In this document: positions 13,247 through 29,064 of the stretch, in pieces
Layout: each line of letters begins with the position of its first letter
Numbering within the stretch: the first letter of the stretch is position 1
NCBI GenBank assembly: GCA_024697295.1
Contig: JAILFZ010000075.1
Span: 1 to 35,810, forward strand
DNA: 35,810 nt
From: Treponema sp.
GTDB lineage: Bacteria; Spirochaetota; Spirochaetia; Treponematales; Treponemataceae
Direction: 5' to 3'
Translations under genes and position numbers: made by a program
Notes under the pieces: model-generated
Databases searched by the model: none
What the model saw: the letters and a program-made list of their open reading frames with translations, nothing else
What the model was told of the DNA's origin: nothing

Positions 13247-14803
13247 TTAATTTTCCCTGATATGCAGTTCGTTTAGCAAACGGGATACGTAGGTTCTCTG
13301 GATTCCGAGAATCTTACCTGCTTCGGTCTGATTCCAGGAAGTTTCATTAAGAACCTTTTTAACATAAGCTGCCTTGAACTTATTGATTGCAGTTTTAAGA
13401 GAACGGTCTCCGTCTGAGCCTTCAAGCACTTCTGACGCAATTTTATCAAAACAGGTTTTGGTATCAGCAGCTCCTGCACCGGCAGAAGAAATTCGCAAAT
13501 CTTCCGCCTGAATATAAGGAGGTTTTCCCAATACGCAGGCACGTTCAACTGAGTTTTCAAGTTCGCGGACATTTCCCGGCCAGTAATAAGCGTAAAGGGC
13601 GTTGATTGCTGAAGTTGAAAAACCTTCAAAATTCTTTTTTGTTTCGTTACTGAATTTTGTAAGAAAGAACTGTGCCAGAGGAAGAATATCTTCTTTTCTC
13701 TCACGCAAAGGAACGATATTTAAAGGCATTACATTCAATCTGTAATACAAATCACTTCTAAATGTACCCTCACTGACCATTTTTTCAAGGTCACGGTTTG
13801 TAGCTGCAACAATACGAACATCAACATTTATTGTCTTGCTTGAACCTACACGTTCAAAACTGTGGTTCTGTAAAACACGCAGCAATTTAGCCTGCAGTTC
13901 AAGAGGAAGTTCACCGATTTCGTCGAGGAAGAGTGTTCCTCCGTCGGCTGCTTCAAAACGGCCTTCTCTGTCACTTACAGCATCAGTAAAGGCGCCTTTT
14001 ACATGACCAAAAAGTTCGCTTTCAAGGAGTGCCGGAGACAAAGCCGCACAGTTTACACGGATAAATGGTTTTCCGTTGCGGTTTGACTTAAGGTGAATCT
14101 GTTCCGCAAAAAGTTCCTTACCTACACCGCTTTCGCCAGTAATCAGGATTGTTGTATTTGCAGTTGCAACTTCATCAATAACATGAAGAAGGTCGAGAAC
14201 CTGCGCACTTTTTGCAACAAACGAGTGATATTCAGTTCCGCTTGCTACATTACTCTGCAATACAGAAATATTATCTTTTGCTGTACGGAATGAATCTGCG
14301 TTTGTATAGGCGATAGCTGCCTGATTGGAAAGCAGTTCTAGGATTTCGAGGTCTTCGTTATCGAATTTTCGGTTATTTGATTTATTAAGCAGTTCAATTA
14401 CACCAATGCATTGTCCGCGGATACGCATTGGGATCGCAATCATTGTTGTTGTGATATATCCGGTTTTATTTTGAACTGTAGTAGAAAAACGCGGGTCAGA
14501 ACCAACATTGTCGATTACAACGGCCTCATTTTTTTCTGCTACCCAGCCTGCGATACTGCTCTTTTCTACGGGAATATTCATTGCCTCGGCACCTTTAGGG
14601 CCGAGAGCAACTACAAAGCGTAATGATTCATCTTCTTTATTCACCAAAAGGAGAGAAGAAGACTCACATTCAACAAGACGCATTGCTGATTCAAGAATAT
14701 AAACCATCAATGCGTTGACGTCAGAATAATTTGAATTTATTCGTCCGTTAATCTCGATGAGTGTTTTAAGTTTTTCTAAACTGAGAGAATTAAGCTCACT
14801 CAT
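13247..14803 (-). CDS. GAF-domain sigma-54-dependent transcriptional activator
   Basis: The product is a 518-residue bacterial enhancer-binding protein in the NifA/FhlA layout. A GAF sensor domain covers about residues 20-170 (ending LELLSNQAAIAYTNA), an AAA+ domain about 195-430 and a Fis-type helix-turn-helix the last 45 residues (NQTEAGKILGIQRTYVSRLL). Walker A GESGVGKE is at 223-230 and Walker B GGTLFLDE at 288-295. The sigma-54 contact loop reads GAFTDA (270-275), not the usual GAFTGA. The gene starts 9 bases after the cmk-rpsA stop and has no clear ribosome site, which suggests coupling to S1 translation. No response-regulator receiver domain is present, so input should come from a small ligand or redox signal bound by GAF. 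Target genes are not evident in this window. Confidence 0.9.
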   Translation of the reverse strand: MSELNSLSLEKLKTLIEINGRINSNYSDVNALMVYILESAMRLVECESSSLLLVNKEDESLRFVVALGPKGAEAMNIPVEKSSIAGWVAEKNEAVVIDNVGSDPRFSTTVQNKTGYITTTMIAIPMRIRGQCIGVIELLNKSNNRKFDNEDLEILELLSNQAAIAYTNADSFRTAKDNISVLQSNVASGTEYHSFVAKSAQVLDLLHVIDEVATANTTILITGESGVGKELFAEQIHLKSNRNGKPFIRVNCAALSPALLESELFGHVKGAFTDAVSDREGRFEAADGGTLFLDEIGELPLELQAKLLRVLQNHSFERVGSSKTINVDVRIVAATNRDLEKMVSEGTFRSDLYYRLNVMPLNIVPLRERKEDILPLAQFFLTKFSNETKKNFEGFSTSAINALYAYYWPGNVRELENSVERACVLGKPPYIQAEDLRISSAGAGAADTKTCFDKIASEVLEGSDGDRSLKTAINKFKAAYVKKVLNETSWNQTEAGKILGIQRTYVSRLLNELHIREN

Positions 14804-14812
14804 CGAAACTAA

Positions 14813-17173
14813 CTAGTTGTTTTTCTGGTCGTTAAGCATGTCGCCAAGGGTGTAAGCACCGTCACCGTCATTGTCTGAAGAAGACATGTACTGGTTTATT
14901 TCTTTACGTGCCTGAGCCTTTTTGAATTCTTTAACTGAAAAACCAACTTTTTCCTTATCAACGTTAATGTCAACAACGTAAACATTGAGTTTGTCGCCAA
15001 CATTGTATTTTTTAACTGCTTCTTCGTATGGAACTTCTTTGTCATCGCTAAGGTTTGCTTTGTTAACAAGACCTTCGATTCCTTCAGGAGCCTTTACAAA
15101 TACACCGAAGTCTGTGATAGAAGTGATTTCTCCTTCAAGTGTTGAACCTGTGCTGTATTTTGAAGCAAATTCCTTCCAAGGATTAGCAGTAAGCTGTTTG
15201 ATACCAACAGAGATGCGGCGCTGTTCAGGATTTACTTCGAGAATCTTAACATCAAGTTCCTGGTCAGCTGAAAGTTCAGAACCAGGGTGCTTAACTTTCT
15301 TTGTCCATGAAATATCTTCTGCACGGAGGAAACCTTCGATTCCGTCATCAAACTGTACGAATGCACCGGCGTTTGTGATTTTAACGATTTTTCCGTGAAC
15401 AGTTGAATCAACAGGATATTTTTCTGCAATTGAATCCCAAGGATTTGGAGTTGTCTGTTTGAGACCTAAAGATACGCGACCTGCCTGGATATCATAGCCC
15501 AAAATCATACACTTAACTTTGTCGCCAATCTTAACCATGTCAGATGCTTTGTTAATCTTTTTAGTCCAGCTGAATTCAGAAATGTGAGCGAGACCTTCAA
15601 TTCCTTCTTCGAGTTCAATGAATGCACCGAAGTCAGTAAGTTTTGTAACTGTACCTTCTACGATGTCTTCAACATGATATTTTTCCTCAAAGTGCATCCA
15701 AGGGTCTTCAGAAAAATGCTTGAGGGAAAGGTTGATTCTCTTATCTTCCGGATTGAGGCAGATAACTTTGAGTTCGATTTCCTGTCCTTTTTTAACAAAG
15801 TCTTTTGGACGAGTAACGTGACCCCAGCTCATATCGTTGATATGAAGAAGTCCGTCAAATCCACCGAGGTCGATAAATGCACCAAAGCTTGTAAATGATT
15901 TTACTGTACCTTTGACTGTGTCACCAACCTGAGTGTTAGCAAAGAACTCATCACGATTTTTGTTCATTGCTTCTTCGAGATATTTACGACGGTTAACTAC
16001 AACGTTAGCCTTGTTGTCTGAGTAAAGACGTTCGATATAGAACTTAGATTCAAGACCGATAAGTTTTTTAGGATCTTCAACCTTTGTGCTGTCTGACTGA
16101 CTGATTGGAAGGAATGCGTGGATGTCACCGCCGAGGCTTACATCAAAACCGCCTTTAACTTCTTTTTCGATTTTTCCTTCAATCGGTGTTTTTTCATCTG
16201 CGGCTTTGCGGAGATCTTTCCACAACTGTTTAGACTGTGCCTTGCTGAACGATACTTCAGGACCGTTGCGTCCATTCAAGTGTACAAGAACAACTGACAA
16301 AACATCACCGACATTTGGAATCTTTCCGGCAAATTCCTGAGTAGGAATCTTGCCTTCTGACTTAGCACCAATATCAATGAATACAAGCTCATCTGTAACC
16401 GAAACTACAGTACCATCAACAAACTGACCATCTTCAAGAGGTTTGAAACTCTTAAGAGACTCTTCTAATTGTGTCTGGATTGAAGTCTTTGATTCAAGAC
16501 CTTCACCATTTTCCACTTCCATCTGTTCCATATTAAACCCTTTTTTGTGAATTTTGGTTAATATTATCTCACAAACCTGCTCAATCGTCAAGGCAGATGT
16601 GTCAATATATACGGCATCTTCGGCCCGTTTAAGGGCGCCTTCTTTTTTGTTTCTGTCGATTTCGTCGCGTTTGATAATTGCCTGCTTTACTTCTTCCAGA
16701 GTCATGTTTGAAACCCCCTGGTCAAAGCGTCTTTGGGCCTGTACGTCAATTGACGCATCCAGGTAGAATTTATATTCAGCCTGCGGAAAAACGACTGTAG
16801 TCATATCACGGCCTTCACATATGATATCAAGGCTTTTTGTGATTTCCTGCATGCGTTCATTTACCAGGTGACGAACGTCCACATTGCTCGAAACCTGTGC
16901 TACTCTTGCGCTGACTGCGTCGTCATGGAGACGGTCTTCTACGTCTGTTCCATTGAGAACAAGCCGGCTGTTTACGTATTCAAGTTTTTGTGTTTTACAA
17001 AATTCAAGAACTTTCTGAGCATCTGTGATATCGATGTCAGTTCCATTAAGTGCAAGCGTAAGAGCCCTGTAAAAACTTCCGCTGTTCAAATAAGTAATGC
17101 CGAGTTTTTTTGCAATAATTGATGCGATAGTTGATTTTCCTGTTCCTGCAGGTCCGTCCATTGCGATGATCAT
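14813..17173 (-). CDS. cmk-rpsA: Cytidylate kinase fused to ribosomal protein S1
   Basis: This single 786-residue frame joins two enzymes usually separate. Residues 1-212 are cytidylate kinase (CMP/dCMP phosphorylation): P-loop GPAGTGKST (7-15), GRDMTTVVFP and a C-terminal RDEIDRNKKEGALKRAEDA-like lid segment. Residues 215-786 are S1 with six S1 RNA-binding repeats, beginning near FVDGTV, IEGKIE, VKGTVK, VEGTVT, VHGKIV and LEGEIT; this part is 572 residues, the normal size of S1. Fusion of these neighbours is known in Treponema pallidum to my knowledge. The ATG at 17173 follows GGAGG inside the end of rluB. An internal site before Met215 (16531) could also yield free S1. The sigma-54 activator follows 9 bases later. 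Confidence 0.93.
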   Translation of the reverse strand: MIIAMDGPAGTGKSTIASIIAKKLGITYLNSGSFYRALTLALNGTDIDITDAQKVLEFCKTQKLEYVNSRLVLNGTDVEDRLHDDAVSARVAQVSSNVDVRHLVNERMQEITKSLDIICEGRDMTTVVFPQAEYKFYLDASIDVQAQRRFDQGVSNMTLEEVKQAIIKRDEIDRNKKEGALKRAEDAVYIDTSALTIEQVCEIILTKIHKKGFNMEQMEVENGEGLESKTSIQTQLEESLKSFKPLEDGQFVDGTVVSVTDELVFIDIGAKSEGKIPTQEFAGKIPNVGDVLSVVLVHLNGRNGPEVSFSKAQSKQLWKDLRKAADEKTPIEGKIEKEVKGGFDVSLGGDIHAFLPISQSDSTKVEDPKKLIGLESKFYIERLYSDNKANVVVNRRKYLEEAMNKNRDEFFANTQVGDTVKGTVKSFTSFGAFIDLGGFDGLLHINDMSWGHVTRPKDFVKKGQEIELKVICLNPEDKRINLSLKHFSEDPWMHFEEKYHVEDIVEGTVTKLTDFGAFIELEEGIEGLAHISEFSWTKKINKASDMVKIGDKVKCMILGYDIQAGRVSLGLKQTTPNPWDSIAEKYPVDSTVHGKIVKITNAGAFVQFDDGIEGFLRAEDISWTKKVKHPGSELSADQELDVKILEVNPEQRRISVGIKQLTANPWKEFASKYSTGSTLEGEITSITDFGVFVKAPEGIEGLVNKANLSDDKEVPYEEAVKKYNVGDKLNVYVVDINVDKEKVGFSVKEFKKAQARKEINQYMSSSDNDGDGAYTLGDMLNDQKNN
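16529..16546 (-). promoter_or_regulatory. Internal ribosome binding site for free S1
   Basis: Inside cmk-rpsA, exactly at the domain boundary, the minus strand reads AAAAAAGGG, six bases, then ATG (Met215). The spacing is right for initiation. Use of this site would give a 572-residue stand-alone S1. Confidence 0.5.
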
Positions 17174-17178
17174 TTATA

Positions 17179-17922
17179 TCATGCCTCCATTTTTTTCTGA
17201 CACAAATCTAAAAGAGATTTGACTTCTCTCTCTGTTAATTCCCTGAATTCACCTTCCTGCAGGTTTCCAAGACGTAAATTTCCGATTCTTACGCGCTTAA
17301 GGCTTCTGACTGTGGCGCCGGCGTCTGAAAACACTTTTCGGATTTCGCGGTTTTTGCCTTCAACAAGGACAACGTCCATTTTGTGACTGCTCAAAACCCT
17401 TGCAGATTTAGCCTTGTAAAAAACACCTTCCACACGCAGTCCTTTTTCAAACTTTTTATCGAGGTCTTCGGGGAGAGGATAACTTGTTTCTACATAGTAT
17501 TCTTTTTCTATCTGACTTGAAGGATGACTTAGTTTTGCGGCAAAATCGCCGTCATTTGTAAAAATGATTGCACCGCGGCTGTACATATCGAGACGGCCGA
17601 CATTGTAAAGGCGCTCGGAGTATTTTTCTTTGAGCAGGGAAACTGCAACTGCCCTGCCCTTTTCGTCTGACTGTGAGCATACGAGGCCGGCAGGTTTATT
17701 CATCAAAATATAGAGTTTTCTTTCTTCGGGGGTAACCGTTTTTCCATCAACTGTTACTTTGTCAGTTGTAAGAACGCGAGTGCCCATTTCGGTTACGACA
17801 ACCCCGTTTACGGCTACACGGCCATCTGAAATTATTTTTTCGCTCGCACGCCGGCTTGCAACACCGCAATGAGCCAAAAAGGATTGAAGTCTGACTGGAT
17901 TTGTATCAGCGGGCAAGTTCAA
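17179..17922 (-). CDS. rluB: rRNA pseudouridine synthase, RsuA/RluB family
   Basis: The 247-residue enzyme converts uridine to pseudouridine in rRNA, probably 23S. An N-terminal S4 RNA-binding domain (about 10-65, RLQSFLAHCGVASRRASE) precedes the catalytic domain. Asp112 in VGRLDMYSRG is the catalytic residue; MNKPAGLVCS and EGKNREIRKVF are further family marks. The usual motif has Thr-x-Gly-Leu after the Asp; here it is Ser-Arg-Gly-Ala, a mild variation. Whether it is RluB, RsuA or RluE/F cannot be settled by eye. The start overlaps the end of scpB by 17 bases, the standard bacterial scpA-scpB-rluB order. Its last codons contain the ribosome site for cmk-rpsA. Confidence 0.9.
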   Translation of the reverse strand: MNLPADTNPVRLQSFLAHCGVASRRASEKIISDGRVAVNGVVVTEMGTRVLTTDKVTVDGKTVTPEERKLYILMNKPAGLVCSQSDEKGRAVAVSLLKEKYSERLYNVGRLDMYSRGAIIFTNDGDFAAKLSHPSSQIEKEYYVETSYPLPEDLDKKFEKGLRVEGVFYKAKSARVLSSHKMDVVLVEGKNREIRKVFSDAGATVRSLKRVRIGNLRLGNLQEGEFRELTEREVKSLLDLCQKKMEA

Positions 17923-18451
17923 ACCTCTCGTTTTCTTTTTCGTCGAGTCTTGGTAATTCTGAAATTGAATTAAGACCGAAGAATTTTAAGAATTCTTTTG
18001 TTGTTCCAAACTGAACAGGTCTTCCAGGGCCTTCCTTACGGCCGACTTCTTTAATCAACTGACGCTCAACAAGAAGCCGAATCATATTGTCAGGCGGAAC
18101 ACCGCGGATTGCTTCAATTTCTGCACGGGTTACAGGCTGTTTGTAAGCGATGATTGAAAGAACTTCCATTGCGGAACGGCTCAGGCGCCCTGCATTTTTG
18201 TTTCCGTAACGTTCCTTGAGGTTTTCCCAGTATTCTTTTTTAGGAGTTAAAGTCCAGCCGCCTGTAATAAGTGATAATTCGACACCGGATGTTTCCTGGG
18301 TATATTTTTCTTTCAGCGCTTCGATACAGCGTTCAACCACATCTTCTGAAAGCTCGGTAATTTTTGCAATTGCTTCTACAGTAAGCGGCTCGCTGTCCAG
18401 GAACAGTACGGATTCAACAAAGCCGACTTCTTTATCTAAATTTACTTCCAT
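17906..18451 (-). CDS. scpB: Segregation and condensation protein B
   Basis: ScpB is the winged-helix kleisin-associated subunit of the SMC-ScpAB condensin that compacts the chromosome. The 181-residue product has the two winged-helix domains, with the diagnostic segments LFLDSEPLTVEAIA, LSRSAMEVLSIIAYKQPVTRAEIEAIRGV and the GRPVQFGTTKEFLKFFGL end. Length is normal. The ATG at 18451 is preceded by AGGA at a slightly long distance. scpA lies upstream with a 57-base gap and rluB overlaps downstream, so all belong to one operon. Confidence 0.95.
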   Translation of the reverse strand: MEVNLDKEVGFVESVLFLDSEPLTVEAIAKITELSEDVVERCIEALKEKYTQETSGVELSLITGGWTLTPKKEYWENLKERYGNKNAGRLSRSAMEVLSIIAYKQPVTRAEIEAIRGVPPDNMIRLLVERQLIKEVGRKEGPGRPVQFGTTKEFLKFFGLNSISELPRLDEKENERFELAR

Positions 18452-18508: not shown

Positions 18509-19285
18509 TTATGCAGCATTACAGCGACAAATTTTTATATCACCGAACATTCTGTTCTGCATGATTACTGCCATCTTGAATTTTACGGCTTCAAGAAGTG
18601 CCATAAAGGCGCAGATTACGTCGAGGACATTGCCCTTTCTGACAATCAGGTCTGTAAACATGCATTCATTTTTCTTTTCCAGAAGTTCGTTCATCAAAGT
18701 AATTTTTTCGTTTACAGAAATTTCTTCGTACATATCTATGATTTTTGAATCTGAATATGAACTGATTAAGTTCTGGAAGATTTTCTGCATCTGCTGCAGC
18801 AGGTCCCATGTATCAATTGTCTGCCACATATCTTCGTCTTCAAACGGAAGCACGCGCTGAATCTTTTTGCGTTCAAAATTCCATTCGCTTTCATCTTCTT
18901 TTTCTTCCATGAGGGCAGAAAGTTTCTTGAACTTCTGATATTCAATAAGTTTTTCTACAAGTTCTTCACGAGGATCCTCAAAATCAAGGTCATCCTCAAG
19001 TTTTACTTCTACCGGGAGCATCATGCGGCTTTTTATATAAACCAGTCTTGCCGCCATATTGTAGAATTCACTCAGGTCTCCGAGCTCTACCTGTGACGCG
19101 TAGTCCAGATACTCGAGGAACTGTTCTGTAATCTGTGCAATAGGAATATCATAAATATTGATTTTATTGTCGCGTATCAAAGCCCAGAGCAGATCAAGCG
19201 GACCTTCAAACTCGCCGACGGTATAGCGGTGTTTAACTTTTGTTGTATCTTCCTCTTCCATTGTTTGAATTAACTGTTCTTCCAT
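18509..19285 (-). CDS. scpA: Segregation and condensation protein A (kleisin)
   Basis: ScpA is the kleisin that bridges the SMC heads in condensin. The 258-residue protein has the conserved N-terminal segment FEGPLDLLWALIRDNKI, then QITEQFLEYL and the helix AARLVYIKSRMMLPVE, followed by an acidic middle and a C-terminal winged helix (about 190-250, LMNELLEKKNECMFTDLI and ICAFMALLEAVKF). The ATG follows GAGGTG, which lies inside the end of folK, and the gap to folK is 4 bases. The last residues (KICRCNAA) are unusual but short. Confidence 0.94.
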   Translation of the reverse strand: MEEQLIQTMEEEDTTKVKHRYTVGEFEGPLDLLWALIRDNKINIYDIPIAQITEQFLEYLDYASQVELGDLSEFYNMAARLVYIKSRMMLPVEVKLEDDLDFEDPREELVEKLIEYQKFKKLSALMEEKEDESEWNFERKKIQRVLPFEDEDMWQTIDTWDLLQQMQKIFQNLISSYSDSKIIDMYEEISVNEKITLMNELLEKKNECMFTDLIVRKGNVLDVICAFMALLEAVKFKMAVIMQNRMFGDIKICRCNAA

Positions 19286-26349: not shown

Positions 26350-29064
26350 ATGTCTGAAGAACTTGTAAAGTCAGTACAGGAAATGCTTAAGGAAGAAACC
26401 TGGACACGTGCAACCATCAGTAATTACACAAAGAACAACCTGATGGAATTGTCAGAAATAGTAGAAAAGGCACGTAATGAAAACTGTGTAGAAGAAGTAA
26501 AGAAAATCTGTGACGAACAGCTTGCCCACACAAAGGACAGTATCATTGCCCTTTATATTTCAGGCATGCTCGGTCTCAAGCAGGGTGATTTGGACGACTC
26601 TTCACTTGTTAACCTCGTTGATATCTTTGAAAAGAATCACAAGGAACCTGTTGTTACATACCTGTGCGAATCAATCCTCGACATAGCCCCTAACAACAAG
26701 TTTGCACTCCGCACTCTCGCAGAAATCTACCGCAATGCGAACGACGACAAAGCATGGGAAATTTACGAAAAAATCGTAAAGATTGACTATGAAGAAGCAG
26801 AAATTGCAAAAATTCTTGCTGAACACTACGAAAACGCAGGCGACAGCGACAGCGCAACCGCATACTACAAAAAGGCACTTCTCCGCTTTGTTAACGCAAA
26901 GAACATGACCGCTGTAAAAGAAACATGGACAAGACTCGTTTCAATGATTCCGGACGAAATTGATTTCTTCCTCCTCGTACAGCGCAAAATCGAAAAATCA
27001 ATCAGCGCAGACAAGAGCGCACTTCTCATGCACGACCTGTATCCGTATTACAAGGACAACTCAAAGTGGGACACTGCAATCGATATCCTCAAAATCATCT
27101 TGACAATCGATCCAAAAGACAATTGGGCTCGCAACGAAATCGCAGCCTGCTTCAAGGGTAAATACGCTGATCACTCAAATGTTGAAGAATACATCCGCTC
27201 ATCAAACCTCAATTCAAGCTTCCGCAACGTATTTGAAGCAATCAATGACTTTGAAAAACACATCGCATTCGACACAAAAAACTTTGTTTACCACAGAACA
27301 TGGGGTGTTGGTATCATCCGCAAGGTAGAAAACGACAAACTCCAGATTAACTTCGGTAAGAAAAACGGCGTAAAAGACATGTCCCTCAAGATGGCAGTAA
27401 GCGCATTGCAGCCGCTTGCAAAAGACCATATCTGGGTTTTGAAGGCTACTCAGTCAAAAGAAGCCCTTGTTAAAAAATTCAAGGAAGACAAAGACAAGTC
27501 ATGGGCTCTCAAAACAATCATCCGTTCATTCGGAAACAGCTGTGACCTCAAACGCATCAAGGCAGAACTTGTTCCTTCAATCCTTACTCCGAGCGAATGG
27601 ACAAGCTGGAATACAGCTGCCAAAAGAACACTTGAAAGCGACCCTACCTTCGGTATAAATCCTAACAACATCAACGAATACATGGTTCGTGACAAGAAAA
27701 TCTCGCCAGAAGAAAAACTCAGCAATGAATTCAAGGCACAGAAGCAGTTTATGCCTCGTGTTGAAGTATTCGGAAAATATCTCGATACAGAAGAAGCTGA
27801 TAAAGAAAATGATTTCTTCTCAGAAATGTACAATTACTTTGTAGGCTTCCTTAAAGCATACAGCCAGGTTAACGAAAACGTAGTAGGTTCATATCTCGTA
27901 GTACAGGAAGTAAGTTCACGTCTTCCTAACCTCGCATACAAACCGGGCTTCTCGTTTGCTGAACTGTACAAGGAAATCGACAATCCGCGCGAAATGTACG
28001 ATGCCCTCAAGGATGGAAAGACAATCAAACTCCAGGACAAATTCCTTGAATCAATCAAGCTTCTTCCTAACTGGGTTGATCAGTACCTTCTCCTCTTCCC
28101 TAGAGTTCTCAAAAAACAAATGCTCGACGACCTGGTTAAAGCAGGCCAGACAGAAAAAGTTCAGAAACTTGCAGCTGCAGCATTTGAAAACTACAAGGAC
28201 TACCGTGAAGCCGTGCTGTTCTTCTTTGAAAACTGCCAGAACGACGAATGGTTCAAGAGCGCAAACATCAGCACTCAGAAGCAGTTGATTTCCATCGTAA
28301 ACATCATTGGTCAGACATACCGCGAAATCGACAACCACATCAATACAACAGAAAACAAGAAGATCGGTAAAAACGCCAAAAAACTTATTTTCGGCGACGA
28401 AAAGTCACCTGTAAATGTATTTGCTGACTACATGCTCAGCTGCTCACAGGAAGAAATGTCTCACCTCTACACACTGGTAGACGATATTTCTGAACTTGAA
28501 CCGACAATCAAACAGACACTTCGAAACCGCATCCTCGAAAAATATCCGGATTACAAATTCCGCACACACGAAGAAAAGTCTTCTACACCAAAGGGAATGC
28601 TCGTTACAAAGGCAAAACTCGACGAAAAGAAGGCCCTCGAACAGAAGATGCAGACTGTCGACATTCCTGCAATTGCAAAGGAAGTTGCAGATGCAAAGGA
28701 AAAGGGCGACTTGAAGGAAAATGCCGAATATATCGCAGCAAAAGAAGCCCAGCACAAACTCAACAACGACCTCAAGCGCTTGCAGGGTGAACTTGCACGT
28801 GCTCAGATCTTTGACCCGACAACTGCTACAACTTCCATGGTTTCATTTGGTACAGTTGTTGTTCTTACAGACAACAATTCTGGCAAAGATGAAAAATTCA
28901 CAATCATGGGACCTTGGGAATCAGATCCTGATGCAGGTATTATTTCTTACATGTCACCGTTCGGAAACCAGCTCCTCGACAGCAAAGTTGGCGAAACACT
29001 TGAATTCACAATCAACGAACACAAGTACAACTATACTGTTAAGAGCATCAAACTTGCAAAATAA
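26350..29064 (+). CDS. greA: Long TPR protein with C-terminal GreA transcription elongation factor domain
   Basis: The product has 904 residues, against about 158 for ordinary GreA. Residues 1-745 are helical, with TPR-like repeats in the first 250 (AEIYRNANDDKAWEIYEKIVK, AEHYENAGDSDSATAYYKKAL). A segment around 310-360 reads like a small beta module (WGVGIIRKVENDKLQINFGKKNG). The last 155 residues are GreA: a coiled coil whose tip carries KGDLKENAEY, with Asp787 and Glu790 matching the acidic pair that stimulates RNA cleavage by polymerase, then the C-terminal globular domain ending in TVKSIKLAK. Long GreA fusions are known in spirochaetes. Codon use is strongly biased (AAC, TTC, CTC), suggesting high expression. 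Start: AGGAG, six bases, ATG. Confidence 0.92.
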   Translation: MSEELVKSVQEMLKEETWTRATISNYTKNNLMELSEIVEKARNENCVEEVKKICDEQLAHTKDSIIALYISGMLGLKQGDLDDSSLVNLVDIFEKNHKEPVVTYLCESILDIAPNNKFALRTLAEIYRNANDDKAWEIYEKIVKIDYEEAEIAKILAEHYENAGDSDSATAYYKKALLRFVNAKNMTAVKETWTRLVSMIPDEIDFFLLVQRKIEKSISADKSALLMHDLYPYYKDNSKWDTAIDILKIILTIDPKDNWARNEIAACFKGKYADHSNVEEYIRSSNLNSSFRNVFEAINDFEKHIAFDTKNFVYHRTWGVGIIRKVENDKLQINFGKKNGVKDMSLKMAVSALQPLAKDHIWVLKATQSKEALVKKFKEDKDKSWALKTIIRSFGNSCDLKRIKAELVPSILTPSEWTSWNTAAKRTLESDPTFGINPNNINEYMVRDKKISPEEKLSNEFKAQKQFMPRVEVFGKYLDTEEADKENDFFSEMYNYFVGFLKAYSQVNENVVGSYLVVQEVSSRLPNLAYKPGFSFAELYKEIDNPREMYDALKDGKTIKLQDKFLESIKLLPNWVDQYLLLFPRVLKKQMLDDLVKAGQTEKVQKLAAAAFENYKDYREAVLFFFENCQNDEWFKSANISTQKQLISIVNIIGQTYREIDNHINTTENKKIGKNAKKLIFGDEKSPVNVFADYMLSCSQEEMSHLYTLVDDISELEPTIKQTLRNRILEKYPDYKFRTHEEKSSTPKGMLVTKAKLDEKKALEQKMQTVDIPAIAKEVADAKEKGDLKENAEYIAAKEAQHKLNNDLKRLQGELARAQIFDPTTATTSMVSFGTVVVLTDNNSGKDEKFTIMGPWESDPDAGIISYMSPFGNQLLDSKVGETLEFTINEHKYNYTVKSIKLAK

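Follow-up and report, generated by a model that had tools for sequence, protein, structure and literature searches.

A conserved candidate promoter and ribosome-binding site for ribosomal protein S1 at the junction of a fused cmk-rpsA frame in Treponema

We analyzed a 35,810-nucleotide stretch of DNA from a Treponema sp. genome (the window), in which cytidylate kinase (Cmk) and ribosomal protein S1 are encoded by one continuous reading frame. The locus is best read as an ordinary cmk-rpsA (S1) pair from which the separating stop codon has been lost. We consider it likely that two routes of expression serve this frame: an internal promoter would yield abundant free S1, whilst operon mRNA that reads through into the locus would yield a minority Cmk-S1 protein, the fusion itself being near-neutral. 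The features on which this reading is built are collected in Table 1.

Table 1 Features of the Cmk-S1 locus and its upstream genes (positions in the window).
Feature	Position	Strand	Remarks
Fused Cmk-S1 reading frame	14813..17173	-	786 aa, 87.6 kDa
Cmk (CMP kinase) part	16544..17173	-	residues 1-210; PF02224 E=8.6e-67; TIGR00017 above cut-off
Predicted free S1 frame	14813..16531	-	ATG at 16531; 572 aa, 63.7 kDa
Shine-Dalgarno (SD) AAAAAAGGG	16538..16546	-	N6 before the S1 ATG
Predicted transcription start	16555..16557	-	leader about 25 nt; placed by distance to the -10
-10 element GATAAT	16563..16568	-	17-base spacer; A2 169/170, A4 166/170, T6 170/170 relatives
Extended -10 element TGTG	16570..16573	-	TRTG in 167/170 relatives
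-35 element TTGACG	16586..16591	-	Leu195-Thr196 codons
S4-domain pseudouridine synthase gene	17179..17922	-	upstream gene, 5 bases before cmk
scpB	17906-18451	-	likely upstream operon
scpA	18509-19285	-	likely upstream operon

The minus strand from 14813 to 17173 consists of a single uninterrupted frame of 786 codons followed by a stop. A first-pass annotation had described the fused frame as intact, leaving the strand unstated, and had given sizes of about 87 and 63 kDa for the long and short products; the frame is indeed open, and the sizes computed from the sequence agree (Table 1). Residues 1-209 form Cmk, and S1 begins at about residue 216. The Cmk part contains the P-loop GPAGTGKS, matches the Pfam family Cytidylate_kin (PF02224) over residues 3-209, and scores 206.9 bits with TIGR00017 against a cut-off of 135.55 (residues 1-207), which identifies a complete domain of the cmk family. 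The S1 part scores 607 bits with the NCBIfam rpsA model TIGR00717 (residues 233-748, cut-off 577), which places it in the bS1 family, and 689 with NF004952 (cut-off 524); five Pfam S1 stretches mark its repeated S1 domains. Both domains thus lie in one uninterrupted frame, and the gene qualifies at the sequence level as a bifunctional Cmk/S1. Bifunctional IspH (HMB-PP reductase)/S1 proteins (NF000907) also carry S1 behind an upstream metabolic enzyme, but the partner is different. Membership of that family was rejected, as the score was 521.9 bits against a cut-off of 624, the best-matching stretch lay in the S1 part and the N-terminal part is Cmk. The fused frame recurs intact, at 98-99% identity, in two assemblies made independently from near relatives, which rules out an assembly error. 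The Treponema draft genome, about 83% complete, contains a single cmk above the family cut-off.

The last Cmk codons hold a candidate sigma70 promoter with an extended -10, TTGACG-N17-GATAAT (16591-16563, minus strand), which was absent from the first-pass annotation. Its -10 element ends 31 bases before the S1 ATG. The site is the top promoter-like sequence of 5.4 kb on both strands, and the sole one of nine candidates with a TG before the -10. The window contains the full extended pattern a single time, and none of 100 shuffles contains it; for this window alone, a promoter this good arises in 5% of synonymous recodings. It shows the sequence characteristics of a sigma70 extended -10 promoter, namely hexamers at a spacing of 16-18, a TGn motif and conservation at the DNA level. 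The best promoter-like site of the ribosomal protein operon in this genome is TTGACT-N18-TATTAT. It lies about 80 bases upstream of the operon's first gene, which is that of S12 as identified by its sequence and place, so that this type of promoter plausibly serves such genes in this genome. Upstream of cmk, scpA, scpB and the pseudouridine synthase gene likely form its operon. Among the promoter-like sites listed, none lies on the minus strand between 16591 and 18476, hence none directly before cmk.

Of about 280 loci from which the junction was collected, 222 are distinct; 172, mostly from Treponematales, were placed in a tree. Among these 172 loci, 170 have the TTGAC element at the end of cmk, and promoter, SD and start are retained in nearly all, whether fused (84) or split (88). 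The same elements were found in two further families of the class; among the loci examined, they are absent from Borrelia-like and more distant spirochaetes. As an outgroup, 27 spirochaete loci (outside the class or from the Borrelia-like family) vary freely at the equivalent codons. The two loci lacking the TTGAC box are T. denticola-like; both are still fused and keep the SD and ATG. Another T. denticola-like locus carries TTGACT-N17-AAAAAT farther upstream, owing to an insertion. Several families have a weak -10 (GAAAGT, CAAATT). A T. pallidum-like genome of 1.1 Mb is fused; its junction shows TTGACC-N17-AAGAAT, a strong SD and, as the start codon, GTG.

The junction itself reads CACAAAAAAGGG-TTTAAT-ATG, with the ATG (16531-16529) at residue 215. 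The first-pass annotation had pointed to an SD and six further bases before an ATG between the two domains, and this arrangement is what we find. SD sequences with at least four Watson-Crick bases precede 31% of the other in-frame ATGs in these genes, so within the window alone the SD is no better than chance, and the relatives carry the case. S1 starts were assigned with a minimum distance of 50 bases from TTGAC; an SD with four or more matching bases accompanies the start in 81/82 fused and 87/88 split loci. The start codon is ATG in 169 of 170 loci, the exception being the GTG of the T. pallidum-like genome; among the 82 fused loci, the numbers are 81 and one. Thus, the SD and the internal start are both conserved in fused relatives, as expected from the sequence of a gene within a gene, and the check that the first-pass annotation had named, retention of the internal site in fused relatives, comes out in its favor. 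RNA folding of the leader revealed nothing beyond shuffles (z about -1).

In the mechanism that we propose, the internal promoter in the last cmk codons would drive a short mRNA with a leader of about 25 nt, on which the SD and the S1 ATG would direct synthesis of abundant free 572-aa S1. A weaker upstream operon transcript (scpA-scpB-pseudouridine synthase-cmk) would be translated through the junction to give a minority Cmk-S1 protein, and this would supply the CMP kinase activity. Internal initiation on the long mRNA could contribute some further S1 and would not be required. Codon usage was taken as a proxy for expression. Relative to 21 genes of the ribosomal protein operon, the codon adaptation index (CAI) is 0.57 for Cmk, about 0.44 toward its end, and 0.78 for S1, with the reference ribosomal proteins at 0.66-0.84. 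The CAI of S1 exceeds that of Cmk in 50/50 fused and 50/50 split members of the genus. A single polypeptide could hardly provide its two halves in unequal amounts. The same bias is also expected of two separate genes, and it therefore supports unequal expression, not the route by which it is reached.

The first-pass annotation had envisaged little fused protein and much free S1 arising from the internal start. The conserved start and SD and the better adapted codons of S1 argue for that outcome, whilst the mechanism was incomplete, as it omitted the conserved promoter. With a conserved sigma70 promoter at the junction, free S1 would most likely come from its own short mRNA and not only from ribosomes that enter the fused mRNA. 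We regard it as unlikely that free S1 is chiefly a product of ribosomes binding internally to the long fused mRNA, with no separate transcript. Conservation of the SD and ATG in fused members is compatible with such a scheme, as are the two T. denticola-like loci that keep both in the absence of the TTGAC box, but the conserved promoter directly upstream makes it unnecessary. Elongating ribosomes that cross an internal site should occlude it, which also speaks against this scheme, and the SD is weaker in fused loci, with at least five matching bases in 26% of them versus 66% of split loci.

To follow the fusion in evolution, a FastTree phylogeny was calculated from Cmk and S1 with the junction omitted (172 rows). 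On this tree, a minimum of 28 changes between the fused and the split state is required, versus 58 when shuffled, and loss of the TTGAC box accounts for 2 changes on the same tree. Splits arise through an in-frame stop (35 loci) or a frame change (53 loci); in draft MAGs, assembly errors may account for some of the split calls. Both states occur in cultured strains, T. berlinense and T. porcinum being fused, and T. zioleckii and T. ruminis split. The most frequent in-frame stop, a TAA at -12, falls within the SD (TAAGGG). It differs by a single base from the AAAGGG or CAAGGG of fused loci, whose SD is thereby one pair weaker. Since the signals are kept while the state flips at least 28 times, the fusion would be near-neutral, with selection holding the S1 signals. 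The best reading of these patterns is that the fusion represents a stop codon repeatedly lost or regained, and is probably secondary to the S1 signals. The first-pass annotation had suggested that the internal site would solve a dosage problem. An origin of the site as a remedy for a dosage imbalance brought about by the fusion does not fit, as split relatives share the promoter, SD and start; these are better understood as ordinary S1 expression signals. The locus thus offers a natural experiment in gene fusion, in which the junction has flipped at least 28 times with the downstream promoter and ribosome site fixed, and this implies that an open fused frame alone is weak evidence for a fused protein or a functional link.

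Selection for the fusion itself, with a ribosome-tethered CMP kinase or a Cmk-dosed S1 being functional besides free S1, seems improbable to us. About half of the sampled loci are fused, including deep lineages and T. pallidum-like and T. denticola-like genomes, and the state is clustered on the tree, which may be plain inheritance. However, the flips are very frequent, and the single base that separates TAAGGG from AAAGGG or CAAGGG fits neutral gain and loss. It is likewise doubtful, though conceivable, that across the order one gene encodes two working proteins, with the promoter dictating which Cmk C-terminal residues are allowed and a minor Cmk-S1 form tethering CMP kinase to ribosomes as a function of its own in fused lineages.

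Constraint at the DNA level was distinguished from constraint on the protein by comparing the codons used at conserved residues with the background use for each amino acid. The codon for Leu195, which opens the -35 element, is TTG in 100/100 genus sequences against a background of 16% (rank 3 of 413 columns) and in 71/73 sequences of the order (rank 1 of 347 columns). Ile203 is encoded by ATA in 91/91 genus sequences against a background of 13% (rank 2 of 413 columns). Residue 203 varies among I, K, R and T with the codon A-N-A kept in 165/170 loci, and residue 201 is C or Y, with the codon TRT, in 168/170; the loci for these two counts were selected for TTGAC, and the codon ranks of Leu195 and Ile203 are independent of that selection. 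The fixed bases at positions 201 and 203 would thus reflect the needs of the -10 and extended -10 elements and not those of the protein. It is very unlikely that TTGAC and GATAAT are kept for protein reasons (L-T-I...V-C-x-I-I) with no promoter: LTI-like residues are common at this position of Cmk and T6 is a second codon base that encodes hydrophobic residues, but synonymous choice is fixed at Leu195 and Ile203, A-N-A stays when residue 203 changes, and outgroup Cmk genes with the same residues choose other codons.

These codons bear equally on the possibility that only the full-length fusion is made, S1 working as its C-terminal portion and the signals inside being relics, which the open frame and deposited annotations of one bifunctional protein such as TDE2080 (PMC3914990) would favor, but which we hold to be scarcely credible, since relics would not hold the TTG, ATA, TRT and A-N-A codons through 28 state changes and codon adaptation jumps at the junction.

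The fusion as such is already known from annotation. TDE2080 of T. denticola is named cytidylate kinase/ribosomal protein S1 (PMC3914990), and the bifunctional annotations of TDE2080 and of TP0279 of T. pallidum have the same domain order as the protein described here. Those records treat it as one protein, whereas we propose an internal promoter and start. In the open-access literature searched, we found no description of a promoter or start inside the treponemal fusion, and TP0279 is not named in the main text of the T. pallidum proteome and transcriptome papers examined. In E. coli, rpsA has its own promoters near or inside cmk. In Yersinia, rpsA lies directly after cmk, and adjacent cmk and rpsA are a widespread arrangement (PMC3603445); the E. 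coli and Yersinia genes have the same order as here, but are separate. Gamma-proteobacterial rpsA is autogenously repressed and has no canonical SD (PMC10931766), in contrast to the conserved SD at the treponemal S1 start. An internal start that yields an N-terminally truncated product from a gene within a gene is found in RpnL/RpnS (PMC10327210). Nested genes of this type share with the present locus one frame, two starts and two nested proteins. The treponemal locus differs in that its shorter product, a ribosomal protein, has a promoter to itself, and in that only some of the relatives encode the longer form. Further bacterial genes within genes that use an internal start are infB and clpB.

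In the annotation of Treponema genomes, the syphilis agent's among them, the product is a bifunctional Cmk-S1. If our reading is correct, the main S1 product would be a separate 572-aa protein and the annotated start would be wrong for most S1 molecules, which would affect proteomics and work on ribosome structure.

Several further observations were made on S1 loci. Three loci of distant spirochaetes (L260, L257 and L262) have a Cmk-S1 fusion without the TTGAC promoter; L260 sits among split relatives and has an SD-like site before the S1 start. In three genomes of another spirochaete family (G324, G345 and G370, family f20), S1 lies inside open frames of about 1280-1300 codons, which suggests a different or larger S1 fusion. 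The T. pallidum-like locus (L186) has a ten-base poly-G tract at about 200-220 (MGTVIIALDGPAG), upstream of the likely Cmk start and inside a longer open frame. Variation in the length of this tract would change an N-terminal extension, if an upstream start were used. A role of the poly-G near tp0279 in T. pallidum phase variation was considered and set aside, since Cmk likely starts downstream of the tract. Early in S1, about 55-70 bases inside the gene, the codons for QTQLEE (16460-16477, minus strand) show a bias as strong as that of the promoter codons, with ACA-CAA-TTA in 89/89, 94/98 and 87/95 genus sequences, respectively. They may mark an unexplained DNA or RNA element, perhaps for S1 autoregulation.

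Downstream of the locus, a gene for a GAF and sigma54-activator protein (13247-14803, minus strand) starts 9 bases after the S1 stop. No terminator was found between the two, and with so short a gap this gene may be co-transcribed with S1. In T. denticola, the sigma-54 regulator TDE2079 adjoins TDE2080 (PMC3914990). Elsewhere in the window, the plus strand encodes a 904-aa long-form GreA (26350-29064, NF011309) with a C-terminal GreA domain and ribosomal-protein-like codon usage (CAI 0.74).
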